IMG/VR virus record: IMGVR_UViG_3300010354_000672
Location: 1-23,600 of that record
Source: a virus
Direction: 5' to 3' (one strand)
Length of the DNA stretch: 23,600 bases
The notes beneath the pieces are model-generated. The model did no database searches. It saw only the letters and a list, made by a program, of their open reading frames with translations, and was not told the origin of the DNA. Positions 1 to 19,166 of the stretch are shown here, one piece after another. The position numbers and the translations under genes are program-made. How positions within the stretch are numbered: position 1 is the first letter of the stretch; each line of letters begins with the position of its first letter.

Positions 1-2664
1 TAATTTTGATTCTTCTTCGGATAGTAAATTATATTTTCCTTGTATTGGAGTAATGTAAGACTCTTGCACTTGGACATCTGAAACTGAAGATAACTCTAAA
101 GCAAAATAAAGAGGTTCAATCAACGAACTAAAATTGTATTCTGGCGAGAATTCATTAACGCCACTTATTGAAGATACAGATAAATACAGGCTATCATTAA
201 CCCCTAATAGATTTAATATTCTAGCTCTGTCAGTTAATGAAAGGTAATTAGCTGAAGAGGTTTCATTTACTGTTGGTAATGGCAAATGATCATAGGATAC
301 CGTTGAAGCATTAATGGAATAACCTCCCCCATCTCCTATATTTAAATAATTAAAAGAATTGTCTACTAATAATGACGGGATACCTGCATTTTTTAAATAC
401 AAAGGCTGCGTTGTCCCATCCAGTTGAATAGCGGGGAGTTTAGCTTCTAGATCTTCTAACAAAAATCTAGTTCTTTTTAAATCATTTCTAGTGGTAGATT
501 GCTCGTAGTTGCTAAACTCAGAATTTATGGATTTAGTTCCAAATGTATTTAAAGAAATTTCAACAGACTCAATTTGATTAGTAGAAACTAATTGAACTAT
601 TGGTTTGTTTTTATAAGATTCGTTTAATGATATGAAGTAATCGGCATCTATTTCATTTAATGTTCCTGTCATTAAATGAGATTTTACCATCAATATAAAT
701 TTATTAAAATTAGAATTTAAGATTGAAGATCTTTGAAGGTTGTTAAATGATTCTAAAAGATCTTTTCTTAGAGAAATTATTAGTTTTTCATTGGTTATGG
801 ATTGAATTATGGCTTCATTCCAAGGCTCTGACGTATCAGCATGGTCTAAGAAATATTTAACTTCCTCTGCTACAGACTCGTTAAATATATTAAGATACTT
901 GTCGTTAGAAACTATCCTAGTTGTTGGCTTAGGTTCAATTTTAAAGAAATTATATTCCTGGTTGTATACAGAAGCAGACTCATTTTCTGTATACAAGTAG
1001 CTTTGTCCTTTTATAGTAGATGAATTTTGTTCAATAATTTGCCTATTATTTATTTCTGATATTATTGAGGTAGATCTTAAAGCGGCATTGTCTATGGATC
1101 CAACTCTTGGAACTTGACTTGAGTTAATTCTTCTGTCGAGTCTTTCTTGATTAAGCCAAGCAGACTCTTGAATCCTGCCATTACCTTGATTTATATTTGG
1201 CTCTTGAGCATTAGGATCATCTGGGGGAGACTCAATTACCTGAATAGTTCCAAATATATCCCCAGGATCTCCATTAGGAATTATTGGATCTCCTGTATTT
1301 GGGTCTTGAGGGCTTTGTTCCTCCCCTGTAGTTGTTCCAGGTCTTCCTCCGGTTACGGGTATCCTTCTACAATTATTTGGGTCGGGAACACAGCCAGCAA
1401 ACAAAGTCCCTACATCTGGTAAGCAAAGTCCTGATGCATTATCATTCCAAGGACCGTTGCTATTCCACCCATTCCCAGACCTTCTTCTTCTATTGGCTTC
1501 CGCGTTATCTACATTAGCCTGTGCTGCTGTGCATGCAACTTTATTCCTTATATTAAAAGGAGGGCCATAGAATCCTTGAGGACATGTATTAGGGACAACT
1601 ATACACCTTGCTGTTGGAGTTGCTGGACCTCCAGTCCCTGGACCGAGGGGGCCTATCTCTGGCCCTGTATCTCCCCCAGTAGTTGGCCCTGGTCTTCCTA
1701 CGTCCACTGGAGTAGAAGCATCTACACAAGAATTTAAAGGTCCATTTACACACTCCCTAAAATATTCTAAATTAAAATCAGTGCAAATGTTATCGTAAAC
1801 ATTATTATAAGGAGGAAACTCGCTTACTAAACTATTCCAAAAATCTCTTGATGTTCTATCATTATCAAATTGTATGCGAGTGCAATCTACTGGCTTTCTT
1901 TTAATTTGTTTTAATTTTGTTTGATTTGGGGCATCGCAATACTCGTAATCAGCTTGACACTTAATAAACCCAGTGTTCGGTGTGGGATCATTATAATTAA
2001 TTGGACAAGGAGGATAAATTGTATCTATGCAATAAGTAAAAAATCTATTACTGTAATCAGTGCATACGTTATCAAAGAGATCATCGTAAGGGGATGTTAC
2101 AGGGTCTATACCAACAACATCAGTAAGAAAGTCTCTATAGGGAGCATCTCTAGTATAATCATCTAATAAGCACGGCTCTGGTCTTCTTCTTACGCTCTTA
2201 ATTGTAAACTCAAAAGGAGGATCACAATAAATATCCGTTCTTTTGCACCTAGTAAATATTAAAGATCTAGGAGGGCCGCCGGATGGAAGATAAAATCCAG
2301 GTAAATCTAAAGGAATCCAAGGTATAAATATTGGAGGATCTTCATTGTAACCACTTGGATCTTGAAGATAGCACTCTACTCTTTGCTCTGGAAGTTGTGG
2401 GGCCATTCCTCCCGCAGGGCCAGGAGGAATAAATAAAAATGGAATTCCTGATGTAGATGATGTAGACCCAGGGCCTGAAGTTGGGGGATCATAATCATCA
2501 GGAGGATCCCAAGGAATATAAGTTCCTCCGTCTCCTGGGGGATCCGATCCAGTTGGTGGATCCCATGGATTACCTAGTCCAGGTCCGCTTACTCCATTCC
2601 CATCTGCCGGTGGTCTAAAACCACTTGGATCAAATGGATCCCCACATTTAGTGATTACAACCAT
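1..2664 (-). CDS. Large Cys-repeat, Pro/Gly-rich virion protein (3' end beyond window)
   Basis: The minus-strand frame stays open for 888 codons from the ATG at 2662-2664 to the left edge. I read every codon and found no stop, so the gene continues outside the window. Residues 1-131 are rich in Pro, Gly, Asp and Trp, with recurring PWDPP-like units. Residues 140-432 hold three tandem six-cysteine modules separated by Pro/Gly-rich linkers. From about residue 470 the protein changes to ordinary Asn/Ser/Leu-rich sequence with likely helical stretches and no further Cys seen. The start lies one base after the TAG of the 882-aa fibre-like gene, with no clear Shine-Dalgarno, so translation is probably coupled. 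I recognise no family. Position at the end of the baseplate/fibre block suggests a peripheral virion protein. A signal peptide is not visible at the N-terminus. Confidence 0.88.
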   Translation of the reverse strand, partial: MVVITKCGDPFDPSGFRPPADGNGVSGPGLGNPWDPPTGSDPPGDGGTYIPWDPPDDYDPPTSGPGSTSSTSGIPFLFIPPGPAGGMAPQLPEQRVECYLQDPSGYNEDPPIFIPWIPLDLPGFYLPSGGPPRSLIFTRCKRTDIYCDPPFEFTIKSVRRRPEPCLLDDYTRDAPYRDFLTDVVGIDPVTSPYDDLFDNVCTDYSNRFFTYCIDTIYPPCPINYNDPTPNTGFIKCQADYEYCDAPNQTKLKQIKRKPVDCTRIQFDNDRTSRDFWNSLVSEFPPYNNVYDNICTDFNLEYFRECVNGPLNSCVDASTPVDVGRPGPTTGGDTGPEIGPLGPGTGGPATPTARCIVVPNTCPQGFYGPPFNIRNKVACTAAQANVDNAEANRRRRSGNGWNSNGPWNDNASGLCLPDVGTLFAGCVPDPNNCRRIPVTGGRPGTTTGEEQSPQDPNTGDPIIPNGDPGDIFGTIQVIESPPDDPNAQEPNINQGNGRIQESAWLNQERLDRRINSSQVPRVGSIDNAALRSTSIISEINNRQIIEQNSSTIKGQSYLYTENESASVYNQEYNFFKIEPKPTTRIVSNDKYLNIFNESVAEEVKYFLDHADTSEPWNEAIIQSITNEKLIISLRKDLLESFNNLQRSSILNSNFNKFILMVKSHLMTGTLNEIDADYFISLNESYKNKPIVQLVSTNQIESVEISLNTFGTKSINSEFSNYEQSTTRNDLKRTRFLLEDLEAKLPAIQLDGTTQPLYLKNAGIPSLLVDNSFNYLNIGDGGGYSINASTVSYDHLPLPTVNETSSANYLSLTDRARILNLLGVNDSLYLSVSSISGVNEFSPEYNFSSLIEPLYFALELSSVSDVQVQESYITPIQGKYNLLSEEESKL
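1369..1605 (-). repeat. Six-cysteine module, degenerate copy C (residues 354-432)
   Basis: Cysteines are at residues 354, 361, 378, 414, 425 and 432, giving intervals of 7, 17, 36, 11 and 7. PWNDNASGLC before the fourth Cys matches PYDDLFDNVC and PYNNVYDNIC in copies A and B. The rest has diverged and includes a run of four Arg (392-395). Cys spacing carries most of the evidence for homology. Confidence 0.78.
1726..1959 (-). repeat. Six-cysteine module, copy B (residues 236-313)
   Basis: Cysteines are at residues 236, 243, 261, 294, 305 and 313, giving intervals of 7, 18, 33, 11 and 8, which matches copy A apart from a three-residue deletion. KQIKRKPVDC and PYNNVYDNIC align with KSVRRRPEPC and PYDDLFDNVC of copy A, and RDF is again 12-14 residues after the third Cys. 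A and B are the closest pair. Confidence 0.9.
2005..2247 (-). repeat. Six-cysteine module, copy A (residues 140-220)
   Basis: Cysteines are at residues 140, 147, 165, 201, 212 and 220, giving intervals of 7, 18, 36, 11 and 8. A basic stretch, KSVRRRPEP, precedes the third Cys, and PYDDLFDNVC ends at the fourth. RDF lies 12-14 residues after the third Cys. The arrangement recurs 96 residues later in copy B. Confidence 0.9.
2473..2640 (-). repeat. Asp-Pro/Trp low-complexity N-terminal segment
   Basis: Residues 9-64 of the left-edge protein are built mostly from Pro, Asp and Gly. Short units recur: DPFDPSG, NPWDPP, SDPPGD, IPWDPP, DYDPP. A related IPWIP occurs at residues 114-118. The segment is probably extended or disordered, such as a flexible tether. 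Further Pro/Gly-rich linkers lie at 1609-1725 (between Cys modules B and C) and about 1261-1362 (after module C). Confidence 0.75.
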
Positions 2665-2665
2665 A

Positions 2666-5314
2666 CTACGCTAACTTTATAGTTGGATTCTGATTAAACA
2701 TCTGCCCAGAACTCATAGCGTTTCTTCCAGCAAAATTTGTTGGAATTCCAACAACTTCAAATTGAACTGTTGGATATATGGCGACACCGACAGTTGATTC
2801 TCCCTGTCTATTATTTGGACCTCTTCCTGAATCTATCACTGGGCCTGGGTTGTGATAATGGTGCCTAGTTATCCAATCTTTATTAAATACTGCAAACCCG
2901 GCAAAATGATTCCCTGTTCTATTTTCTCTTGGAATTATTGGGAAATTAACTGTATTTCCAGGAACTTGTGCAACGTCAGCTATATCTGCTCTAAAATCTT
3001 TTGCAGTCCAAGCGGCATATATTATAAAGTGATCTGTATATTTTTCTACCCATAAACCTGCCGCCCCAGCGATAGTTTCCCCACCCCCATGATTGTCTGG
3101 ATGCCCTGGCCTTCCACCAAGATTTCTAGAAGTTTGACTTGTTAGCGGAGTGCAATTCATAAATTGAACATTTACATTATAATCACACATCCATGGAACT
3201 CTGCTTCTATCCAAATTAACTCTTTTCTTAACGAATAAGAGATTAACCATGCCGTCTATCAATAATTCACCTCCGCTTACAGGATAAGAAGAGGTAGGAA
3301 ATTGATAATATCCTGATCTGTAGGATACAGTCCCATCTCGTTCGTATTGAACAAAATTTGGAATTGGAGTAGTTCCAAATCTCTTTAGTTTAGAACTTAA
3401 AGTATAATCAGAGTAAGCAGCATATTCATATACAGGAAGGCCCGCCGAATCTTTATTTCCATATGAATTCATTTTAAAGCTATGGAAATTTATTCTATCA
3501 TTTGGATATCTTCCTGGGTCTGAATATCTTGTTCCACACCAAGCCGCAATATCCCACTCTGGATAGCACTCTAGTCTAGTGTAGCCATAATCTCTTACTA
3601 ATCTTTCCACAGCTTGATCTCTAGTTAGTGTGGGATTTTGTTGCATTATGTAACTAAGCAATGCACCTTCAACGCCGAAAGCCCAACCACCTTGAATAGT
3701 ATTTGAATGAACTACTCTAGGGAATGTTCCATCAAAGCTTTGCTGCTCTGGCATATTGCTCAACACTCTATTTATTTCATATCCTAATTCAGCTTGAGTA
3801 ACGACTGGGTTAGCTAAAGATGGGGCAGGGATTGAGGCGGCCAATCCGGCTCTTTCATTATATGTTAATTCAGTAGTTCTAAAGAAAGGTCTAATATCTA
3901 TTACATCAGAATTTGTAATTATTGTTTGGCCTTCTTCATTTAATTGTGATGATTTTTTTACTACAATATAGGCTATAGGCAGAATGCTTTGTCCAATTAA
4001 TGGCAAGCTTTGCTTATCTAAAGTTAAATCTAAAAGTGGAGCTAAGTTCATTAAGTCATCAGGGGATGGGAATGAACCTTTTACATTTATACCGTCAATA
4101 TTAAATCCAGTGTTTATTCCAGATGTATCCCCAAAATGTGATAGCATCTTTGGAGTTCCATCTTCAAGAGTTGTATCATCTCCATCTAGATACTGACCCT
4201 TGTTAGTGCCTTGAGGGGTCAATACCTCTTGAACTCTTATTGGGCCAAAGTCTTTAAAGTTTACTCCAAGGCCAGCACCATACACCAAACCTAATTGGGG
4301 TTGAGTAATAGTTTGTGGAACACCATTTGTAAATTTAGCTATGGTGGTCGAGCTTGCATCTATTGGTTTAGAATATATGAATAATAAATCTATTCTTTGA
4401 GTTGCCGCATCTAAAAGAACTTTTTGTCTTGATTCATTATAATAAAAATAATCTTGAGGATTGAACGCAGGTATGCTTACACTAAGCTCTTCTGCAACAT
4501 CTACTATAGCGGTTCTTGCGACTCCTCTCCATCTTTTTACAAATGCAGTTTCAGCAGCAGGCAATCTAGCAAATCCAACTTGAGGATTTGAATCTCCTTG
4601 CTGTCTTATTGTATATGAAAAAGGTATTACAGGAAAATTTATTATAGGACCATTAGCATCTATAACTCCCCCGTTAGTCCCAGGGAGGTTAGCCGCGCTT
4701 TCAACTTTATTCCATAATATCGCACCTAACATAGGATAAGGAGGTTGCCCCCATAATCCATCATCTCCCGGGATGGCTTCAATAATAATTTGTGAGTTAC
4801 TTAAGAATTGAGATCCTCTTCCTGGTGATTGAGCAGGCCAAGTAAAAGCTCGTTCATATAATCCGTTCAAATCTAATTGAACAGCTTCTTTAAATTTGGC
4901 TATGGATGTCTGTATGGAGGGATGTGTCAAGCCTCCAGCTAACCATATATTATTCCATCTAAATTTTTCTTGATTTGGACTTCCAGGCAGAGGCGATGGA
5001 AGCAGTTTGAAAATTACTTGTAATGGATCTAAGTTATATGCATCATTTATTCTTGCACTGAACCTTCCTGGCTTTACCTTCACTATGTTATCTCTACCAT
5101 CAACGTAAGGTTTAAGCTCTGTAAATCCGCTTCGGTCTATAGTTGAATCCCCGGCTATTCCAAATATTTGATCTTTCAGCCAAAGATCGTTTTCTTGAAG
5201 TTGCTTTAATGGTATATTATCAACTTCATAATAAATTGGATCGTTAGCTTTAAAAAATCTAATAGGACTTGTAAACCTATATTGGCTATCCCTGTAATTT
5301 CTAATAATATCCAT
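2666..5314 (-). CDS. Large baseplate-associated / tail fibre-like structural protein (882 aa)
   Basis: No enzymatic motif is visible. The N-terminus (residues 28-50) contains DNIPLKQLQENDLWLKDQI, which aligns without gaps to residues 39-57 of the beta-helix protein encoded just upstream. I take it as a shared virion-attachment segment. The body is mixed beta-type sequence. Around residues 480-510 it has an IDIRPFFR...ELTYNERAGLAA stretch. Near the C-terminus are two His clusters, HPDNH (738-742) and HHYH (818-821). The start codon overlaps the TAA of the 1177-aa gene by one base (TAATG) and has a GGAGAG Shine-Dalgarno nine bases upstream. The gene ends in TAG and is followed one base later by the next ATG. 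The role is inferred from context and the shared N-terminus. Exact family unknown to me. Confidence 0.85.
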   Translation of the reverse strand: MDIIRNYRDSQYRFTSPIRFFKANDPIYYEVDNIPLKQLQENDLWLKDQIFGIAGDSTIDRSGFTELKPYVDGRDNIVKVKPGRFSARINDAYNLDPLQVIFKLLPSPLPGSPNQEKFRWNNIWLAGGLTHPSIQTSIAKFKEAVQLDLNGLYERAFTWPAQSPGRGSQFLSNSQIIIEAIPGDDGLWGQPPYPMLGAILWNKVESAANLPGTNGGVIDANGPIINFPVIPFSYTIRQQGDSNPQVGFARLPAAETAFVKRWRGVARTAIVDVAEELSVSIPAFNPQDYFYYNESRQKVLLDAATQRIDLLFIYSKPIDASSTTIAKFTNGVPQTITQPQLGLVYGAGLGVNFKDFGPIRVQEVLTPQGTNKGQYLDGDDTTLEDGTPKMLSHFGDTSGINTGFNIDGINVKGSFPSPDDLMNLAPLLDLTLDKQSLPLIGQSILPIAYIVVKKSSQLNEEGQTIITNSDVIDIRPFFRTTELTYNERAGLAASIPAPSLANPVVTQAELGYEINRVLSNMPEQQSFDGTFPRVVHSNTIQGGWAFGVEGALLSYIMQQNPTLTRDQAVERLVRDYGYTRLECYPEWDIAAWCGTRYSDPGRYPNDRINFHSFKMNSYGNKDSAGLPVYEYAAYSDYTLSSKLKRFGTTPIPNFVQYERDGTVSYRSGYYQFPTSSYPVSGGELLIDGMVNLLFVKKRVNLDRSRVPWMCDYNVNVQFMNCTPLTSQTSRNLGGRPGHPDNHGGGETIAGAAGLWVEKYTDHFIIYAAWTAKDFRADIADVAQVPGNTVNFPIIPRENRTGNHFAGFAVFNKDWITRHHYHNPGPVIDSGRGPNNRQGESTVGVAIYPTVQFEVVGIPTNFAGRNAMSSGQMFNQNPTIKLA

Positions 5315-8300
5315 TAGTTATTTCTCTCCATATCAAACAAATTGAGCGACCCTAATCCTAAAAGTCTTGCAGAATCTCCATATCTAACCTGAGATCCCCC
5401 AGGTTCATAATTATATGGATAATAAATTGTCACTAATTTAGCATTATTTGACTTTCCAGTAGAACAATGTTTTGCATTAGCAAAAGTTTCCGCCGCTGAT
5501 TCATCAAGAATAGCTCTCACACTATTATTTAATATTATTTCTTTTCCATAATAGTATCCAGAAGGAACATAATTTCCACTAGTATTTTGTTTAATTAATG
5601 ATTTATATACAGAGCTTAAAGACCCACTACAAATCATTAAATTAGACGAAGGCTGATACCCTTGTGAATATAGCTGAGGTATAATCCCATAGCCGCTTCC
5701 GTCTAGATTAACTAAAGTATTTGCAGCAGTGTCTATTGAAAAGTAAAGCCTGAAAGGACCAAAATTACTAGCTGAAGTTGAAGTATATGGAATTGTAGCA
5801 GCAGACAAATTAGCTCCATACAAATCAAGTATGGAAACAGTGCTTGTATCTGGAGTTGAAGATGGAACTCCAAAACAAATAGAGCTTGCTCCTGTTCCAC
5901 TAGTCCATGCTCCATATGGACCTCTATACCCTGACGTTCTTGGATATAGCCCGCTTACTGAAATATATGATGCCTTTAATAATGAGTCATCGCATATGTT
6001 CCATATAAATGAGTGATAAGCGGCCCCAGTGACAGATAAAGGTATGTTAGAATCAAAGTAAGGAGCAGATGCGTTCCACCATCCACATGGAAAGTTTACG
6101 TTGTGTATATTTACATTACTATTATTTACTGCTTTAACACATACCCCTCCGAAGGTTGCAGCACTCATAGATAAGCCAGTTAATGCTAAATTATGTAAAA
6201 AGTAATAGTTTAATCCAGCAGCAGTAAATTGATCTACGTCCTCAAGCTCTGTAGAGAATGATTCAGCTATTTGATTGTTAGTAAGTGGTGAAGGTAGCGG
6301 ATTAGGATAAAACTGTAAACTTCCACCACTTGTAAACAATCTTTGTGGAATTGAAATATCATTATAATCAAGTCCACTGAAGTTAAATATAGAGTAGCCC
6401 ACAGGATCTCCACCATCCAATCCCCAAGTTGATGCAACATCTCCTAAATCCCTTGCTTCAAATATTGAATGGTTATCTACAACAACACAAGATCTTGTGC
6501 TATGAAGTTCTACTGCTGTGTGGTTGGCTGGATCTGTTGTATCTATGGTAAATATATCTAATGAATTATCTGCTGTTTGTCTTGGAGGGGATATTAAAAT
6601 TTTTGAATTGTTTTCCGCTAAGAGGTCTACTCCAAATTGAGCTATGACGGTAGGACCATTCAAATGAATGGCAGAGTTCTTATCTGCATACAAAGCAGCT
6701 AGGTTTACAGAATAGTCTGCATTAGCTGGCCCGAAAATTTTTGTTGCAAAAAATTTGGTTCCACGTAAAGTGGCTTTAGAGTTATCTAGAACACTAATCT
6801 CAGAGCCCTTTTTCGAATATCGACTATCGTCGGGTATCGCTATAGTAAAATCATTAGTTCTTATAAATTGTGGAGCTATAAAAGTTGCTTCTGAATTATT
6901 TTGTATTTTAACTGCTTCTGGGATAGCAACACCAAGGAAAATCGCAGGGTCACCAATTATCTTTCCTATTGAATTTTCAAAAACAATTCTTGCAAAAGTT
7001 TTTTCCATTGAAGATGTCAACACTGGAGACATTATGGAATTATTAAGAATTAAATGTTGTCCATTTTGTTTGAAATAATATGGATGAGTGTAGAAATCAA
7101 GTAATCCTCCTGTTGAATGGAATATATTAAAATTTTTGTTATATATAATCTTAGAATTTATAGAGTTTATTCCTTGTTTTTGATTTGCAGCACAAGTTAA
7201 TTTGTCTAATTCTAAAATTGAATTATTTAATTCAGCACCAACAAGGTTCTCTAGTAATCTTAGTCTTCCATCTAATGAAACTTTTGAATTGTTTGATATT
7301 ATTCCATGTCCGACATTGTGAGCAAAATCAAAGTATGACTCATACAATGATGGGTATGCTTTTAATGTCTCTTGAATTTTTCCACCTTGAACAATGGAAT
7401 TATTTAATATCATTCCATTAGCATTCTTAGTGAATTCAAAAACATAATAATTAGCTGTAAATGGCGTAGCACTAGCAGGATTCCAACTAGAGCTATACAA
7501 TTTATTTTCTATCTCATGTGTAGAAGAGAAAGTTATTGTTGAATTATTGGCTACAATTCCCGCTGCTAAATCATCCTGAGGGTAGCCAGATGCGATATTG
7601 AATGACAAGAACTTTCTTCTTACGTCATAATCAGCAGTTAGTCTATTACCACTAGAGTCAAAATCATATATTCTTGTAGCTACACAACCTCTAGTAAGTA
7701 TCACATTAGAATTGTTAAATTTAAATCCAGCTTTTCTATATCTTGTGGCTACAATGTTTTCTAATACTATGTTTTGACAGTTGTTTACTTCTACGCCGTG
7801 GGAATTATTTGTCTTAGTTGATCCACCGCCTTCTAGAAAAAAGTTTCTTATAAAGATTTTACCATCGCAGTTATTTACAAATAACTTGTTTAGTTTGTTT
7901 CCGTAATAAAGGCCGTTATATCCAGATAAGACAGGCCCACCTTGCCAAGCGTTGCCAAGATAAATATTTAAATTAGAGAAGTAATTTAATGTGCTAGGAT
8001 CCTTTGTCGTTATTTGCTCTGATGGATGAGGATTTAAATCATATGGTTTAAATTTTAATGAAAACTGATCTCCTACAGTGTATGGATTTGTAGTATTAAA
8101 ATCATCTATTACTAAAGTAGATCTACCATAGTTATCTAATGATTTTTGTAGAGATACATAAGCGTTTAATTTAGATATTGATCCTGTCCCAGACAACCTA
8201 GAGTCTGTTGTTGAACTAAATACAGGAGCAGATATTGACAAACAACTAGCTTCTAGGAAGCCCTTCAAAGGAGCTATTCTAGACGTTGAAGCATCATAAA

Positions 8301-8847
8301 ATGCAGAGTTTGGATTTCTAACTACAGAAGATACGTAACTAAACGTATTAGCTATTGAAGAGTCAACAACTCCAACTACAGGAGAATTTAATCCATACGA
8401 GTTACCTGGAGAAGATACCGACACTTCTTGTTTAGCAAAATTTCTATTTATAATTTCAAGAGAGCCCCTAGGCCCAAATCTAATATTACTTAAAACTAAA
8501 TCACCTAATTGACCGAAGCTTGCAACTTCTACTAATACAGGGAAATTTATTCTTTGGGGCAATGTTTCTATGGCTGCACTTAAGGATCTAAATATTCCTT
8601 TATTGCAGGCTATTGAGGAGTCTGGCGCATCTGCTGACACAACAAGCGTTACTCCCGGCATCGAAGACGTTGGATATCCTAATTGCTCCCACAGGAAGAA
8701 TGTTCTATCTTCAAGATCGTATATCGGTAAGTTATCTTGCTCCCAGTTATAGAAAGAGCTAGAGTCATATTTAGTTACTTTATCTGTCCAACAGCCATAA
8801 AGTTTTAGAGATCCACTGCCTGAATAAATATCGCCTGGGAAAAACAT
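5314..8847 (-). CDS. Right-handed beta-helix tailspike/fibre-like protein (1177 aa)
   Basis: Residues 32-57 hold a probable attachment segment (YNWEQDNLPIYDLEDRTFFL). Residues about 75-140 have the GIFRSLSAAIETLPQRI entry typical of pectate-lyase-type right-handed beta-helices. From about residue 325 to 800, and again near 909 and 1109, short strands alternate with N-N-S-x-hydrophobic turns, for example FNNSNVIL, ANNSTITF, LNNSIVQG, SNNSKVSL, LNNSILEL and ENNSKILI. Such stacked Asn positions form ladders in known beta-helix proteins. Trimeric beta-helix spikes bind or cleave host surface polysaccharide. I cannot point to catalytic residues, so binding versus depolymerase is open. The ATG is one base after the upstream TAA (TAATATG). 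The only SD-like element is a GGAG 14 bases away. The gene's stop overlaps the next ATG. Confidence 0.88.
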   Translation of the reverse strand: MFFPGDIYSGSGSLKLYGCWTDKVTKYDSSSFYNWEQDNLPIYDLEDRTFFLWEQLGYPTSSMPGVTLVVSADAPDSSIACNKGIFRSLSAAIETLPQRINFPVLVEVASFGQLGDLVLSNIRFGPRGSLEIINRNFAKQEVSVSSPGNSYGLNSPVVGVVDSSIANTFSYVSSVVRNPNSAFYDASTSRIAPLKGFLEASCLSISAPVFSSTTDSRLSGTGSISKLNAYVSLQKSLDNYGRSTLVIDDFNTTNPYTVGDQFSLKFKPYDLNPHPSEQITTKDPSTLNYFSNLNIYLGNAWQGGPVLSGYNGLYYGNKLNKLFVNNCDGKIFIRNFFLEGGGSTKTNNSHGVEVNNCQNIVLENIVATRYRKAGFKFNNSNVILTRGCVATRIYDFDSSGNRLTADYDVRRKFLSFNIASGYPQDDLAAGIVANNSTITFSSTHEIENKLYSSSWNPASATPFTANYYVFEFTKNANGMILNNSIVQGGKIQETLKAYPSLYESYFDFAHNVGHGIISNNSKVSLDGRLRLLENLVGAELNNSILELDKLTCAANQKQGINSINSKIIYNKNFNIFHSTGGLLDFYTHPYYFKQNGQHLILNNSIMSPVLTSSMEKTFARIVFENSIGKIIGDPAIFLGVAIPEAVKIQNNSEATFIAPQFIRTNDFTIAIPDDSRYSKKGSEISVLDNSKATLRGTKFFATKIFGPANADYSVNLAALYADKNSAIHLNGPTVIAQFGVDLLAENNSKILISPPRQTADNSLDIFTIDTTDPANHTAVELHSTRSCVVVDNHSIFEARDLGDVASTWGLDGGDPVGYSIFNFSGLDYNDISIPQRLFTSGGSLQFYPNPLPSPLTNNQIAESFSTELEDVDQFTAAGLNYYFLHNLALTGLSMSAATFGGVCVKAVNNSNVNIHNVNFPCGWWNASAPYFDSNIPLSVTGAAYHSFIWNICDDSLLKASYISVSGLYPRTSGYRGPYGAWTSGTGASSICFGVPSSTPDTSTVSILDLYGANLSAATIPYTSTSASNFGPFRLYFSIDTAANTLVNLDGSGYGIIPQLYSQGYQPSSNLMICSGSLSSVYKSLIKQNTSGNYVPSGYYYGKEIILNNSVRAILDESAAETFANAKHCSTGKSNNAKLVTIYYPYNYEPGGSQVRYGDSARLLGLGSLNLFDMERNN
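5324..5329 (-). promoter_or_regulatory. Shine-Dalgarno GGAGAG for the 882-aa gene
   Basis: GGAGAG on the minus strand ends nine bases before the ATG at 5312-5314, inside the last codons of the upstream gene. It supports that start. Confidence 0.6.
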
Positions 8848-13400: not shown

Positions 13401-14391
13401 CAGATCCGAATAACTTCCACCCTATCAACTCTGCTATCCTAGGTAAAAGATTGTCTTCACATCTATTAAGATCATTTATTACTTCTAGTCTATCAATAGT
13501 GTTTTGATAGTCAGCAAATGCCATAGAAAAGGCTTTAATCAGTCTACTAAATGCTCCGTAATTAGATTTTACAGTTATACGATCTCCTGTAACTAAGAAA
13601 TCGTCAATAGCATTTTTTACGCGATTATCTGAAGAATCTATGTATAAAGGGGAATAAACAATATCAATTAGAGTTTGTAGCTTTTGAAGTTGTTGAGTTC
13701 CGCTTGTATAAGTTGTCGATTCCACCAACGGAGTAAGACTATTTGGTAAAATTCCTAAGCTTTGCCAAGGAGTGCATACGCTGTAATTTCTCCAAATGTA
13801 TTCTGCAAAAGATTTTATTCCATCATTTATTAGTATTGGTTCATTTACATAAAGTTTTCCAATAATCAAATCATGAACTATGCTGGATGGACTGTAGGCT
13901 AATGAAGGTGAACCAGTATTTAGAAAGTATAGCCAAGACAAATTAGTAATAAGATATTTGTGATTTGCCGAAGTGGATCCACCTTCAAGGAAATCTAATG
14001 TTGGATTATTAAGACGTATTCCAGGAAGTAAAGTAGTATTTAAATAGTCTGAGAACTCCGCGCTCCCAGCAAAATTCTTCAAACTTATATCTAAAGGAAC
14101 TAATACTTTTCTTTCAAAATCACTAAGGTCTAAATCGGTTAGATTGTTTTGTTTTACAAAATAAGGTGCTATTGATTCTGGTGTAGTCAGTGTGCTTACG
14201 TTTAGTATCGAGCTAAAATTTGCTATACAATTTAAATGAGAATTTATTACTTGGTCTAATATATCTACTTCTTTTTGGGTGCTCTTATTGTCTTCATCAA
14301 AATAAAATGGTGGTATTACATATTTCAAAGCAGCATCATAGTTAGATTTGAAATATTGATTATTACTTGTTAACTTTGAAATATTAGACAT
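10438..14391 (-). CDS. Tail protein I-like giant baseplate wedge protein (1317 aa, gp7-like position)
   Basis: The clearest domain is at about residues 313-362: LLPRIAELIGWKLFG, an Arg-rich helix, then ANAVDIYRTTGTKKSIQFAV. This is the pattern of P2-type tail protein I (proline/Trp segment, then Y-R-x-x-G-T). In P2-like phages gene I follows J, and here the gene directly follows the J/gp6 homologue and overlaps it by eight bases. The protein is far longer than P2 gpI and somewhat longer than T4 gp7 (1032 aa), so a gp7-like wedge arm fits. Residues about 694-702 hold an Arg-rich patch (PRRSHRRRN). Residues about 1044-1090 (EFSFKFKCLVSE, then GVWIHTDVEDGKVWSF) look like a beta-sandwich binding module. 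No Shine-Dalgarno is visible. Assignment of the I-like part is good; the remainder is unassigned. Confidence 0.88.
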   Translation of the reverse strand: MSNISKLTSNNQYFKSNYDAALKYVIPPFYFDEDNKSTQKEVDILDQVINSHLNCIANFSSILNVSTLTTPESIAPYFVKQNNLTDLDLSDFERKVLVPLDISLKNFAGSAEFSDYLNTTLLPGIRLNNPTLDFLEGGSTSANHKYLITNLSWLYFLNTGSPSLAYSPSSIVHDLIIGKLYVNEPILINDGIKSFAEYIWRNYSVCTPWQSLGILPNSLTPLVESTTYTSGTQQLQKLQTLIDIVYSPLYIDSSDNRVKNAIDDFLVTGDRITVKSNYGAFSRLIKAFSMAFADYQNTIDRLEVINDLNRCEDNLLPRIAELIGWKLFGSEPDRWRLQLANAVDIYRTTGTKKSIQFAVDSVFGQEVFDISSTILEQWESYIPNLIYYSLATESTILKNYDVFTQTVANSLGITNYSFDNFDHNIRACTDKILEDVVYQFSSNFFLGTEQFPLSSADFIFNYRGIDRKIPPFEQYPYYTQSVITKNMVEFIADKLVCYSVPQEFALKVKDYINTNLFLTDDVAIRNGFLFFTSATQYPPNWDSIIKDITNTKAEYLPLWNSKSSHFKVVLDASGFDFNKNSLESDTRETIKVAAQIAGEFSPAHAIPHVLAKITDEDNYTNFHRNNNYISFYKTDHAAVLTASSNIMSTYGASALAMSSYKRGLTPTSTPTFSRREVDSLVDPFVSPGGTIANLPRRSHRRRNLKNIIPTEGYYDRTGFNMPVPINNYTDSINRFLPLGFVPSSFQYVPIPNYNDLPAIYGICENLSSPNSYNQVMVSNTYPIRGWESSSTLEKGVLNPFIATLHSIRERIKDQQASAFYYTNPNFYIKNKNWYNVIGSYANSSTEFSGNFPNSFDDYLNFGFGKNFHKYYYEYCHAFQQHNLFPNILDMHGPNIFSHTFGPLIADVNKQSNSPYNFITTSLTNFKSLNYGGEIFSSSGLASGCYLASSILNYGTGINEIRSSSLISEVELCQTSGSSRQNGFSIIKLDKRNRSEDFINKFIYDNLIVKQTSVDGFGRLIFNISKYPWTDSLYTINNFSPTYNFLSPDHEFSFKFKCLVSEPTARSLGGASIGVWIHTDVEDGKVWSFNKNKEWIQHDASGITRGSIISNYSINTFISNSQRAPEAELGLPTTQCLRYLIPNNPNKENDAINSFAQSEFEDIEIKFNTLNYKIETPNNYQNKVHRLNQKYVIEVFMLPVQDDKYILFTNFNMQDLTLKKMSEILVSGVGNAADYGNLYSKEFKVDLTKQEIFNIFKYFNDIRGAYHNAGLASREASKTQALYEASGGSRINYVENPDWSINTANSFYGINIAYTFNN

Positions 14392-15991
14392 AAGATATAT
14401 TTAAAGTATAATTATTTAATTGAGCTATTTCGTTGAAGTTGAGTTTTATAGCATCTTTGATATTGTCAATCGTAGCATACCTAACTTCTTCAACTTCAAA
14501 TACCTTATACAAAAGTTCTTGTGGATTGAACTCTTTGCCAAAATCATTGTTGTCTACATTGAAATACTCTAAAACTTTTTGACTTACTTTACTCTTAATA
14601 GAATTTTCAATCGTTTGATACTTATCATCAACTTTTAAAGTTATTATTACATCCAGGGTTCTTATCAATCCGTCAACAACTACAACTTCATCAGTGAGCA
14701 TTTTCCTATCTTTGATTGCCTCTGCTAGCTGTCTCTTGTATTCAGGAGTAGCTTTTCTTAGTTGTATGTTGTTCGACTTTTCAAGAACATAAAGGTCGAT
14801 GATGTTTGCCGAAGAGTAAGCCCTTCTAGTTGCTGCTGTAGCTTTACCTACTGATCCATAAGAGCTTATGTAGCTATTAGCAAATGCTTTATAGTCTAGC
14901 AGCGTCACAAGTCTGCTTTGTGATCTAAACATCAAAGGACCATATCTTTTTGCGTGCTCAACTGTTTCTGCGTCAGAGCCACCTGTGGCTTTAGACATAT
15001 TTTGAACTGTCATAGATATCTGCGTTGGAGTAGCTGCTATTGACGAATAGTATTGGCAATTTGAATTAGCGTTTATTAATTCTTTTACAATATTACCTCT
15101 AGTTCCTCCACCAGCCCTGTAAATTATTGTATATGTATCCCCGATGGCAGGAACTTTGCCTAAGTTATTATCTCCAAATACCACTGTGCCGCCGTAGTTT
15201 TCATCGGATACTAGCTGGAATATCTTATCATCTCCTGATGAAGCATAGAACAAATTGTCTACTTGCCTATACTGACCTTCAGTTTGAGCGGTGCCTGATA
15301 TGAAGGCTTGAACGCTCCCTTCTATAACAGGCGATTTTTGTAGCCTTACAGCCTTTAAAGCCTCGGTATCCGAGAACTCTCCAGTCTCTTTTACTAAAGA
15401 ACCCTCTAAAAGGATTAGGCTTGATAACGCAGTATTAGATGCTCTTTCTGTATCATTTATAATTAAATCCCCGTCTTGATTTGACAAATCAAGATCTCCG
15501 TCCACACCAATTTTGTATAGAGTGTAAGTGACTGGATTACCGTCCTCTGGGGATTGAATTGTTATAACTCTGCTATCAGCGGGTATTTTAATGAAAGATC
15601 CTGCGGGCCACCCAGGAGCAGTGGACAGGGTAGCTCTAGCATCAGCCGCAGCGGCGATTGGACCCTTCATTCTAACTCCAATTAAATTAAATAACTTTCT
15701 AATGCTCTCTCTAGATCTAGCTGTGCTTAAAAAATTCTCATTAGCTAAATAGTCAGCCTTGTAAGACATTACGTGTCCCATGTAGGCAACTAGTTCCACC
15801 AACATCATTCCAAGGTCTGACTCAGCAAAGTAAGTATAATCTAATGGGTAAACTGCTTTTATGTAATCAATTAACGACTGTCTTAAAGTTAAAAAATCTA
15901 CTGAGGCAAAATTAATTAAAGTATTTTTATCAAAATCTTCAATCTTTGCTAATTTTAAAAAATCAGATTCTATCTTACCGTTGAATACCAT
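14384..15991 (-). CDS. Baseplate wedge protein, gp6/J family (535 aa)
   Basis: The N-terminal half has the family signature: YFAESDLGMMLVELVAYMGH (54-73), then YKADYLANENFLSTARSRES (77-96), followed by LIGVRMKG. A glycine-rich YRAGGGTRGNIV turn follows near residue 300, and the C-terminal region ends with strands that fit the gp6 dimerisation half. T4 gp6 (660 aa) and P2 gpJ form the ring that joins the wedges and switches the baseplate to trigger sheath contraction. The ATG overlaps the TAA of the gp25-like gene by one base (TAATG), and AGAGGT lies six bases upstream. The gene order gp25-J-I matches that of P2-like and many other contractile tails. Confident assignment. Confidence 0.95.
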   Translation of the reverse strand: MVFNGKIESDFLKLAKIEDFDKNTLINFASVDFLTLRQSLIDYIKAVYPLDYTYFAESDLGMMLVELVAYMGHVMSYKADYLANENFLSTARSRESIRKLFNLIGVRMKGPIAAAADARATLSTAPGWPAGSFIKIPADSRVITIQSPEDGNPVTYTLYKIGVDGDLDLSNQDGDLIINDTERASNTALSSLILLEGSLVKETGEFSDTEALKAVRLQKSPVIEGSVQAFISGTAQTEGQYRQVDNLFYASSGDDKIFQLVSDENYGGTVVFGDNNLGKVPAIGDTYTIIYRAGGGTRGNIVKELINANSNCQYYSSIAATPTQISMTVQNMSKATGGSDAETVEHAKRYGPLMFRSQSRLVTLLDYKAFANSYISSYGSVGKATAATRRAYSSANIIDLYVLEKSNNIQLRKATPEYKRQLAEAIKDRKMLTDEVVVVDGLIRTLDVIITLKVDDKYQTIENSIKSKVSQKVLEYFNVDNNDFGKEFNPQELLYKVFEVEEVRYATIDNIKDAIKLNFNEIAQLNNYTLNISYV

Positions 15992-16455
15992 TAATTTACC
16001 TCTAACTTAACTTCAAAGTTTACATTGTCTTCCTCTGCTATTGAGCAGAATAATTTAATTATTAGTGTGCTTCCCTCTGCTAATTTAGAATTTTCGTCAA
16101 ATAATATTTGTAATTTATTTACTCTTACGTTAGTTGCATAAGTATTTATGGACTCTAGTATTTCTAATCTTATTTGATTAAGTAAATATTGATCCAAAGG
16201 TTCCATTAAATAATTTTTTAAATTAGTTCCAAAGTTAGGAAGCATAACTCTTTCTCCCCTGGTAGTCTGGAGAAGTTGCCTAAGGTTGGATTTAATTAAT
16301 TCTAAATCAGAAGATTTCTTTAAGAAATTACCTTCTTTGACATCCCCGAATGGAAATTTTAATCCATATCGTTTTCCACCCTTTGATTTGGAATCATATG
16401 AAACTGACTTAACAGGTTCTATGCCATACAGGGTTGTCTGAGAATTTAATGCCAT
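15991..16455 (-). CDS. Baseplate wedge protein, gp25-like (GPW/gp25 family, 154 aa)
   Basis: Residues 52-100 carry the family core: an IKSNLRQLLQTTRGERVMLP helix-turn followed by NFGTNLKNYLMEPLD and a long helix. The rest is a short beta-meander ending EVKLEVN. Gp25 homologues nucleate sheath assembly at the baseplate and clamp the gp6 dimer; they are among the most conserved parts of contractile systems. T4 gp25 is 132 aa, and the extra residues here are the polar N-terminus (about 1-45). The ATG starts two bases after the TAA of the LamG-protein gene with no visible Shine-Dalgarno. The gene overlaps the gp6-like gene by one base, so the two wedge partners are translationally linked. Confident. 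Confidence 0.96.
   Translation of the reverse strand: MALNSQTTLYGIEPVKSVSYDSKSKGGKRYGLKFPFGDVKEGNFLKKSSDLELIKSNLRQLLQTTRGERVMLPNFGTNLKNYLMEPLDQYLLNQIRLEILESINTYATNVRVNKLQILFDENSKLAEGSTLIIKLFCSIAEEDNVNFEVKLEVN
15998..16003 (-). promoter_or_regulatory. Shine-Dalgarno AGAGGT for the gp6/J-like gene
   Basis: AGAGGT on the minus strand sits six bases before the ATG at 15989-15991, within the end of the gp25-like gene. It supports the chosen start. Confidence 0.6.
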
Positions 16456-16457
16456 AA

Positions 16458-19166
16458 TTATTTATTAAATGAAGGATACCAAACGTCTATGTTCTTAAAG
16501 AAGTCTTTTTGAGACTTATAATTATTTAGTATTTCGTTACTATTCAATGGCTTAGAATAGAATTTTAAGCTGCCAATATATCCTCTAAGCCCACTTATTA
16601 TTCCTCCATACTCTCCACCCATAAAGTTTCCTCTTAGAGACATTCCATCAGTGTAACCTCCACCGACTATCCATGGCGTGAAGTATCTGTCCAGCTTTGG
16701 TCCCGCCTTGAGACTAGCAGGAGCTAGGGATCCGACAGAGCTTGAATTATATTCAAAGCTGTTGGCTTTCTTAAATGTTGGAATATTTGGCATTGAATAA
16801 GCAGGAATTCCAAAGACATAAGACAAACTAGAAGTGGCAAACTTCTCGCCGTCAAAGTATATGGATATGCTATCCTGAATAGGGTCAAAAGTTACTGATA
16901 TGTTGCAGAATTCTTTTCCACATGCAGACAAAGCTCTACCTTCATTTAAATTGTTGAGCTTAACAACCATTGAGTGATACTTGTTTGCATCAGTGCAGTT
17001 ATCGTTATCGTAGAAGTTTCTATTTATTAATCCCACAGACGATGCTGTTAAGGATTGCGTTGGGGCTAAGAAAAACACAGACGCACTTACTGGGTTATCG
17101 TTTGTGTTGTTAGATGCAGGAAGCTCAGAGCATAGTCTTCTATCTCTTGTGAACCCCATCATGAAGCCTCTAACCACCTTGTCTCCAAAATCGTTTCTGC
17201 TGGCCTCTGTTCCACTAGTGCCTGAGCCTATGACGCCTGTGTTTTCGTTTGCTAATACCAACCTATACAAGCTAGAGACGTTCCCAGAATCGTATCCTAG
17301 AGAGACAGAGGAAAGGTTTGGCATGTAAGTCCAGAAGTCTATTGTAGCCCCTGTCTTGCTATACAATAAATCGTTGTATTGTGGAATGTTAGGCAGCTTT
17401 ACATAACTTCCTAATGCACTTGGATTTGTTGGAACTGCGCTCGAATTTATAGTTATTCCTTTAAGGTATGGAATTCCTAGCCCTGATCTAAATATAAAAT
17501 CTTGATCATCAGATACTAGTTGAGCATAGTTCTCAGATGAAACTGCTATGTAATTCTTTAAATTGTAATTAGTTGAAGAAGGCTGATCTAAGGTTGTTTC
17601 CAAGAAGTTATACATGGAAATCATAGAATCAGTTACTATAGAGTTCTCAGCTTGTAATATAACTGAGTCTACCGAGGATATGGAGTAACCGTCATAGATT
17701 ATTGCACCGTCTCCAATGCTTGGAAGAATTAGATGCTCTACGGACGATTGCTTTGTGTATATCTGGGGGACAGTTGTTGCTGCACTCGTTTGCAAGGGGG
17801 ATACTACCCCTGATATATCCACTTGAGAAAACATCAAAGCTTTTTGCTTTTGAATATCAAATGATATATTTAATCCAGCAAGATACGAGAAATCATTTAC
17901 CGGGATCTCTCCTGGTTCAAATATAATCTCTCCACGATAAATTGACGGCAGGGTTACAGCTAGTTCTATCTGCTTCTTTCTCTTATTAACAGCTTCTAAA
18001 TGATATGCATTCTCTGATATCAAAGATTGTTTAAGATTATAAATAATCGACTGGGAAGCGTTGTTAAGTTCTAAATCAGATATTTGACCAGAAATATCGT
18101 ATATTCTCTTATTCTTTACTCCGATTAAATGTTGTAACAGCAAGTCATTATCATAATAAGATTTTAGTAAACTGGAGTCATTTACCTTGTTTGGGTCTAA
18201 TACAGTATTTACATATGATTTTAAATCTTCAGTTGAGAAAGAATCTCCTCTCCCTCCCAAGTTAGGGGCATAATCAAATTTCCATTTTCTGTTAGATTGA
18301 AGCTCTGCTTTCTTTTGATTTATAAATATTAATGCTGGTAAAATACCACTGGATTGAGAATCAAAGTAGATTCCGTCATTTGATAATACGAACTGGCCGT
18401 AAGTAGACTTTGGTGGTCCGTATACTAATCTGAATATTTCTTTTTGCTCTTGAACTTGAGGAGCACATTGAACTGACAAAGTTGTTCCAGACAAGAATTG
18501 TAATGCTTCACAATTAAACACTGGCTCTAAACTGGGATCTAATGCTCTAGAGGAAATTATATCGTCTATAACATCTATTTGAGCATTGGCACTTACTATA
18601 AAGTTTTGAGCTTCTTGCATCTGGGCTATCTCTACAGAATAAAGATTATTAATGTAATCATTATATTCTTCATCAGTTAATCCGGCTAGCTCATTAGCCG
18701 AGTTGCCGTCTCTGTATTTCAAATAATTTCTATAGTCACCAATACAAGTTCTTATTCCATTAATTTGATTTTCCGCTGCTTGATAATTCTGATATAGCCT
18801 TCCCCCTAATGCTGTCGCTGCGTTTAAAAGACCTAACACGTTAGATAGCGGACCGAGGCGATCATACCCATTCTTAGAGGATGCCGATATAAATATAAAT
18901 CCTCCGTTCTCTAAATCCCATTGTATAATTCCTAACTTATTTCTTAGAAATTCATTTATACTTTGCATAACGCTGTCGGCAAGGTCAGCACCAAGACCAA
19001 GCTCTTCTGCCATGCCACCCAAAACGGATGTTGGAAGAATGTTAAGAATGTCCCTGCCTAACCCAATTATACAATTAGGAACCCCAAATCCAGTTCCAAC
19101 TGCTTGAGGGAAATCTCCTCCTTGCCCAGCTACTTTTGCTGCTGCTCTAAAATCAAATGTTGCCAT
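16458..19166 (-). CDS. Baseplate-associated protein with C-terminal LamG-like domain (902 aa)
   Basis: Residues about 600-895 look like a LamG/concanavalin-A-type jelly roll: GATIDFWTYMPNL at the start, then CNISVTFDPIQDSISIYFDG in the middle, and IGSLKFYSKPLNSNEILNNY at the end. These are the usual strand signatures of the fold, often sugar-binding in other proteins. The N-terminal 100 residues are Gly/Leu-rich (MATFDFRAAAKVAGQGGDF). Residues about 120-200 and 360-410 look helical and possibly coiled. I do not recognise the N-terminal part. The gene lies between the spike and gp25-like genes, which suggests a structural protein near the hub. Start: ATG two bases after the upstream TAA, with a weak GGTAAG five bases upstream. 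A hydrolase role is not supported by visible catalytic residues. Confidence 0.85.
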   Translation of the reverse strand: MATFDFRAAAKVAGQGGDFPQAVGTGFGVPNCIIGLGRDILNILPTSVLGGMAEELGLGADLADSVMQSINEFLRNKLGIIQWDLENGGFIFISASSKNGYDRLGPLSNVLGLLNAATALGGRLYQNYQAAENQINGIRTCIGDYRNYLKYRDGNSANELAGLTDEEYNDYINNLYSVEIAQMQEAQNFIVSANAQIDVIDDIISSRALDPSLEPVFNCEALQFLSGTTLSVQCAPQVQEQKEIFRLVYGPPKSTYGQFVLSNDGIYFDSQSSGILPALIFINQKKAELQSNRKWKFDYAPNLGGRGDSFSTEDLKSYVNTVLDPNKVNDSSLLKSYYDNDLLLQHLIGVKNKRIYDISGQISDLELNNASQSIIYNLKQSLISENAYHLEAVNKRKKQIELAVTLPSIYRGEIIFEPGEIPVNDFSYLAGLNISFDIQKQKALMFSQVDISGVVSPLQTSAATTVPQIYTKQSSVEHLILPSIGDGAIIYDGYSISSVDSVILQAENSIVTDSMISMYNFLETTLDQPSSTNYNLKNYIAVSSENYAQLVSDDQDFIFRSGLGIPYLKGITINSSAVPTNPSALGSYVKLPNIPQYNDLLYSKTGATIDFWTYMPNLSSVSLGYDSGNVSSLYRLVLANENTGVIGSGTSGTEASRNDFGDKVVRGFMMGFTRDRRLCSELPASNNTNDNPVSASVFFLAPTQSLTASSVGLINRNFYDNDNCTDANKYHSMVVKLNNLNEGRALSACGKEFCNISVTFDPIQDSISIYFDGEKFATSSLSYVFGIPAYSMPNIPTFKKANSFEYNSSSVGSLAPASLKAGPKLDRYFTPWIVGGGYTDGMSLRGNFMGGEYGGIISGLRGYIGSLKFYSKPLNSNEILNNYKSQKDFFKNIDVWYPSFNK

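Follow-up and report, generated by a model that had tools for sequence, protein, structure and literature searches.

The window, i.e. the whole stretch of DNA analysed here (a 23.6 kb IMG/VR virus fragment), encodes a protein with three modules of six cysteines at fixed spacing, carried on Gly/Pro-rich linkers ahead of a conserved C-terminal domain. The domain family is real and new, and the protein that carries it is modular and of virion type. We consider it fairly probable that this is a virion protein displaying shuffled, disulfide-stapled, putative surface-binding modules, and that it belongs to a T4-superfamily lineage so far uncultivated. The sequences themselves show the homology of the modules, their fixed six-Cys pattern, the even cysteine numbers, the gain, loss and exchange of cassettes and the T4-type tail/head operon; that the protein is part of the virion, that and when disulfides form, and that the modules are exposed and bind a surface is what we infer.

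The open frame of the Cys-module protein lies on the minus strand, starts at ATG 2664 and continues beyond the window's first position; it is thus partial, with 888 residues seen. Cysteine makes up 2.25% of the protein, whereas the other 12 genes of the window have 0-1.2%. The 18 module cysteines form three six-Cys modules of about 85 residues between 2247 and 1369, minus strand, exactly as the original prediction had placed them: residues 140, 147, 165, 201, 212 and 220 in module A (intervals 7-18-36-11-8), 236, 243, 261, 294, 305 and 313 in module B (7-18-33-11-8) and 354, 361, 378, 414, 425 and 432 in module C (7-17-36-11-7). When 18 cysteines were placed at random in this stretch, 300,000 trials never gave this periodicity, even with a spread of 3 allowed per interval. 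The two sequence signatures that had been described along with the spacing are both present: P-[YW]-[DN]-[DN]-x4-hydrophobic-C before Cys4 (PYDDLFDNVC in A, PYNNVYDNIC in B, PWNDNASGLC in C) and a basic stretch ahead of Cys3 in A (VRRRPEPC) and B (IKRKPVDC). Only two cysteines, Cys7 and Cys98, are found outside the modules. The parts of the protein and its neighbours are listed in Table 1.

Table 1. Features of the window, with the basis of each assignment.
Feature	Position	Strand	Basis
Cys-module protein, partial CDS	1..2664	-	open frame, ATG 2664 directly after upstream gene; homologue L005
N-terminal Cys-Gly motif MVVITKCGDPFDP, Cys7 at 2646-2644	2626..2664	-	CG in most homologues
Gly/Pro-rich linker with Cys98	2248..2625	-	sequence
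Six-Cys module A, residues 140-220	2005..2247	-	Cys pattern, module profile
Six-Cys module B, residues 236-313	1726..1959	-	Cys pattern, profile; AlphaFold2 pLDDT 82
Gly/Pro/Thr linker B-C (..GPTTGG..GPLGPGTGG..)	1606..1725	-	sequence
Six-Cys module C, residues 354-432, exchanged cassette	1369..1605	-	62.5% identity to L019 module
Conserved C-terminal domain, first 325 of ~600 residues	1..975	-	alignments
Neighbour, 882 aa, function unassigned	2666..5314	-	served to find L005
Neighbour, 1177 aa, FYNWEQDNLP near N-terminus, clade marker	5314..8847	-	relatives search
Baseplate wedge subunit, T4 gp6-like	14384..15991	-	phrog_219 1.4e-40
Baseplate wedge subunit, T4 gp25-like	15991..16455	-	phrog_261 1.2e-15

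The Cys-module protein has no credible match in Pfam, PHROGs or PDB sequences; weak Pfam/PHROG matches (FXR_C1 at 0.004, ADPRTs_Tse2 at 0.07, phrog_17389 at 0.02) were judged to be chance. Direct searches of viral contigs, and tblastn of 50,697 phage genomes, returned nothing. Homologues were reached via the 882-aa neighbour, the C-terminal domain (C-domain) and then the 1177-aa neighbour. The first homologue, L005:12534-15869, has 1111 aa, 37% identity to the window protein and two six-Cys modules; L008, L009 and L010 were found next with the C-domain, and the search with the 1177-aa neighbour brought 67, later 80 contigs. This marker gene has 285 relatives in IMG/VR and none in the 50,697 phage genomes. 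By extraction with a C-domain profile, 67 distinct homologues were obtained in uncultivated phage contigs. The C-domain, about 600 residues with few cysteines, is common to all; ahead of it stand an N-terminal Cys-Gly motif (in most members), Gly/Pro linkers and from 0 to about 80 cysteines. L034, L055, L131 and L137 have at least 60 N-terminal cysteines each, and the existence of members with no module at all (L022, L063, L008, L009 and L074) argues that the modules are dispensable. In L039 the Cys region (4443-5927, 29 Cys) and the C-domain (5961-7901) share one reading frame but form two neighbouring ORFs, separated by several stops. If the L039 contig is correct, this split suggests that the two parts can be separate polypeptides.

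Window-type modules number seven in four phages (A, B and C; two in L005; one each in L019 and L020). Loss of the cysteines in homologues, named beforehand as a result that would speak against the original prediction, did not occur: all six are kept in 7/7, including the modules outside the window. A profile of these seven finds only them above noise, plus weak matches to four L039 blocks, and a search with the module C pattern gave no further viral contig. An eight-Cys form (L010, L025, L032, L039) starts with two cysteines 7 or 8 residues apart and has an extra C-x-x-C. The Cys-rich blocks of L048, L055 and L068 have no visible relation to window-type modules; these proteins (at about 13,600-17,300) contain 43-65 N-terminal cysteines in an acidic, Asp/Gly-rich context and start with MAN[FY][IL]TCWL in place of the CG motif. 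Their Cys regions look like a different module family. Tandem four-Cys repeats of about 40 residues, W-x-C...C...F-x-T...C-x3-C, form a third module type in L010:2271-3860. A Pfam scan of the Cys-rich regions of the relatives gave no match to any scanned region. The claim of homology covers window-type and related blocks, not all block types.

Confident AlphaFold2 models were obtained for module B (pLDDT 82), with three strands and helices between strands two and three, and for the C-domain in its L009 copy (pLDDT 87.5). With Foldseek, module B had no match below 0.001 in the PDB, and the C-domain had none below 0.001 in the PDB and BFVD. On these models, neither module nor C-domain has a known fold relative. 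The assertion that the units belong to no described family thus stands after Pfam, PDB and Foldseek searches: a match to a described domain, the second result named as contrary, was found neither by sequence nor by fold.

The relationships of the modules differ from those of the C-domains. Module C and the only module of L019 share 62.5% identity (69% at the DNA level) and follow the same linker, GPLGPGTGG, whereas the C-domains of these two phages are 37.9% identical and the nearest C-domain to that of the window is from L005 (42.8%). The C-domain tree pairs the window with L005 and, separately, L019 with L020, each at 99/97; a grouping of the window with L019, a pair picked by module and not by tree, is rejected (AU p 0.0008). 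L147 and L150 have C-domains 86% identical, but the linker of one includes a complete six-Cys block that the other lacks, and L067 has 8 Cys against 1 Cys in L074 with C-domains 68% identical. In these three cases whole modules have come, gone or passed from phage to phage as units, the Gly/Pro linkers being likely junctions of exchange. A recent duplication giving A and B, with C as an older copy, had been proposed. This is not supported: identity between A and B is only 31.6%, while A has 39% with the one module of L020 and C, as mentioned, 62.5% with that of L019. From these identities, the set looks assembled by exchange, not by recent duplication in place.

The modules could be a disulfide-stapled spacer only, i.e. 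a stalk whose number and length of units set the reach, with no binding of their own. The protein is conserved at both ends, the linkers are collagen-like Gly/Pro repeats and module number varies freely, all of which would suit a stalk. But the module surfaces are strongly diverged between copies while the cysteines are fixed, and distant phages have exchanged specific modules; a mere spacer would call for none of this. We find this explanation rather unlikely. Cassette variation with a fixed Cys framework is what one would expect of a device that binds changing surfaces, and the position in the tail operon is in keeping with this. An exposed fibre had been suggested, but the layout is not that of a classical tail fibre, in which the C-terminal tip is variable; here conserved ends flank the modules.

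Cys-rich modules with paired cysteines are a hallmark of secreted proteins and of animal proteins; they are not usual in the proteins of tailed phages, which are made and fold in the reducing cytoplasm. The original prediction had allowed for either metal or disulfides. We counted the cysteines before the C-domain, the conserved N-terminal CG cysteine being excluded. The count is even in 49/53 members, and in 45/49 after removal of those more than 60% identical (p 8e-10), bearing in mind that even-Cys blocks copied as units make members not fully independent. For the control, a neighbour protein two genes away in the same phages, 21 counts are even and 23 odd. Such an excess of even numbers is recognised as a signature of proteins that use disulfides (PMC3177088). 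The exceptions are four members, including the window (19) and L005 (13). The extra cysteine of each, Cys98 and Cys101 respectively, lies at a corresponding place ahead of the modules and could pair with the N-terminal cysteine; the total of the window protein is even only when both Cys7 and Cys98 are counted.

Binding of zinc or another metal would give the protein stability while it is still in the reducing cytoplasm of the host, where folding would then pose no problem, and the eight-Cys variants of the relatives do have R-C-x-x-C, CxxC being also used by metal sites. However, zinc-type sites have four ligands, from CxxC knuckles or Cys/His, and would give counts in multiples of four, while modules A, B and C have six cysteines each, no His and no CxxC. 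Cys counts are strongly even, yet modulo 4 they are flat (23:22), with no preference for multiples of four. Metal binding thus seems quite improbable. The even numbers, together with the lack of His and CxxC in A, B and C, favour disulfides, and on these grounds we hold with good confidence that the modules contain intramodule disulfides rather than metal sites; of the two options first envisaged, that of metal loses ground. What speaks against disulfides is that tailed phage proteins fold in a reducing cytoplasm, and that a search of 23 large contigs, themselves fragments, gave no gene for DsbA or thioredoxin; a search of the contigs for Erv1 is void, being without positive control.

Disulfides could also join subunits. 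In Agrobacterium phage Milano, intersubunit disulfides lock the sheath and baseplate (PMC10811340), and the cysteines described here might likewise cross-link tail or baseplate subunits covalently until infection. The N-terminal CG cysteine, conserved and left over after pairing, would be at hand for such a role. Fixed spacing inside six-Cys blocks and even numbers nevertheless fit intramodule pairs, and members free of modules exist; a general cross-linking role is therefore distinctly unlikely. The resemblance to Milano is that of a contractile-tailed phage with disulfides in tail proteins of the particle, disulfides that here we infer from genes. The difference is that its bonds are between subunits, whereas here repeated, exchangeable modules of fixed spacing are found in a separate protein.

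The N-terminal motif of the window protein, KCGDPFDP, is a form of the family motif xCG.[FY].PG. Its cysteine (Cys7, 2646-2644), conserved in most members, is unpaired by count. Judging by its conservation, a cross-link to another subunit or to a partner through this one residue is possible. Anchoring as a lipoprotein via the CG motif was dropped, the cysteine having no preceding hydrophobic stretch.

The window also contains a gp53-like gene, on the same strand as the Cys-module, gp6-like and gp25-like genes. In the relative L009 the Cys-protein gene is followed by genes for the head maturation protease, gp23, a head-tail adaptor, a sheath stabiliser and the sheath. Taken together, these genes place the Cys-protein gene in a phage of the T4 superfamily, with tail/baseplate genes on one side of it and head genes on the other, and the phage structural context that had been supposed is indeed a T4-type tail operon. 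Gene order is fixed: the neighbour genes lie to one side of the Cys-protein gene and the head cluster to the other. This fixed place, and the fact that nearly all members have the modules fused to the conserved domain, make it very improbable that the modules are no part of the virion but a factor, secreted or injected, whose gene has been joined to a structural one, in spite of the separate ORF of the Cys region in L039.

The two neighbours upstream have similar N-terminal motifs, YYEVDNIPLKQLQENDLWL in the 882-aa protein and FYNWEQDNLPIYDLEDRTFFLW in the 1177-aa protein (near 5250 and 8750, minus strand), as if one docking peptide served both. Across all relatives, FYNWEQDNLP hardly varies. 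A 203-aa protein at 8849-9460 matches phrog_5417 (7e-10), whose function is unassigned.

In a gp23 tree the clade is placed outside the T4-like/cyanophage branch. It stands, on long branches, at a great distance from both a cyanophage and a Stenotrophomonas phage, and is separate also from Rhodothermus phage RM378, which is without the C-domain and the neighbour protein. Far-T4 phages are uncultivated and aquatic, with T4-type structural genes and a distant gp23 (PMC4360716, PMC7198788). The present clade is similar in all these respects and has no isolate; it may correspond to these phages, the likeness being one of description. One difference is that its gp23 stands apart from that of the isolate RM378. 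For one Far-T4 genome a Bacteroidetes host is predicted (PMC7198788). A search of 84,980 bacterial and archaeal genomes with the C-domain and the neighbour gave no relative. The 595 kb phage LR756511 has gp6 in common with the window; its C-domain matches (E 0.008 and 0.03) have stops inside and were judged to be chance.

We propose the following mechanism of module display, which seems likely from the genes. The C-terminal domain and the short N-terminal Cys-Gly motif would fix the protein to the particle, and the flexible Gly/Pro linkers would carry a variable string of small Cys-rich modules, three six-Cys ones in the window. The module cysteines would pair into disulfides once the particle reaches an oxidising environment, either after lysis or in a host whose cytoplasm is itself oxidising. 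The modules would then be rigid, protease-resistant knobs with surfaces free to vary, and recombination in the repetitive linkers would allow them to be gained, lost and exchanged between phages. Their most likely targets would be the surface of the host or other matter in the water; binding could then change while the particle anchor stays untouched. More tentatively, one may see here a variable-binding system based on disulfides and proper to a widespread lineage, in which shuffled cassettes of a new fold are oxidised only after release and would give knob-like binders to lytic phages whose assembly takes place in a reducing cytoplasm.

Ig-like and collagen-like insertions in phage virion proteins are small surface modules and Gly-Pro repeats that are gained and lost. 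The modules and Gly-Pro repeats described here resemble them in being gained and lost in structural proteins, but the modules have at least six cysteines and match no such Pfam domain. By analogy only, they recall the disulfide-rich binding domains of animals (Cys-rich repeat receptors, toxins), where a fixed Cys framework supports a variable surface; for the window modules neither Pfam nor the PDB gave a match by sequence or fold.

If true, a fixed anchor bearing exchangeable cassettes of disulfide type would add a new means of surface variation to those of phages. The timing of virion disulfides and the binding partners of the modules have become testable questions.
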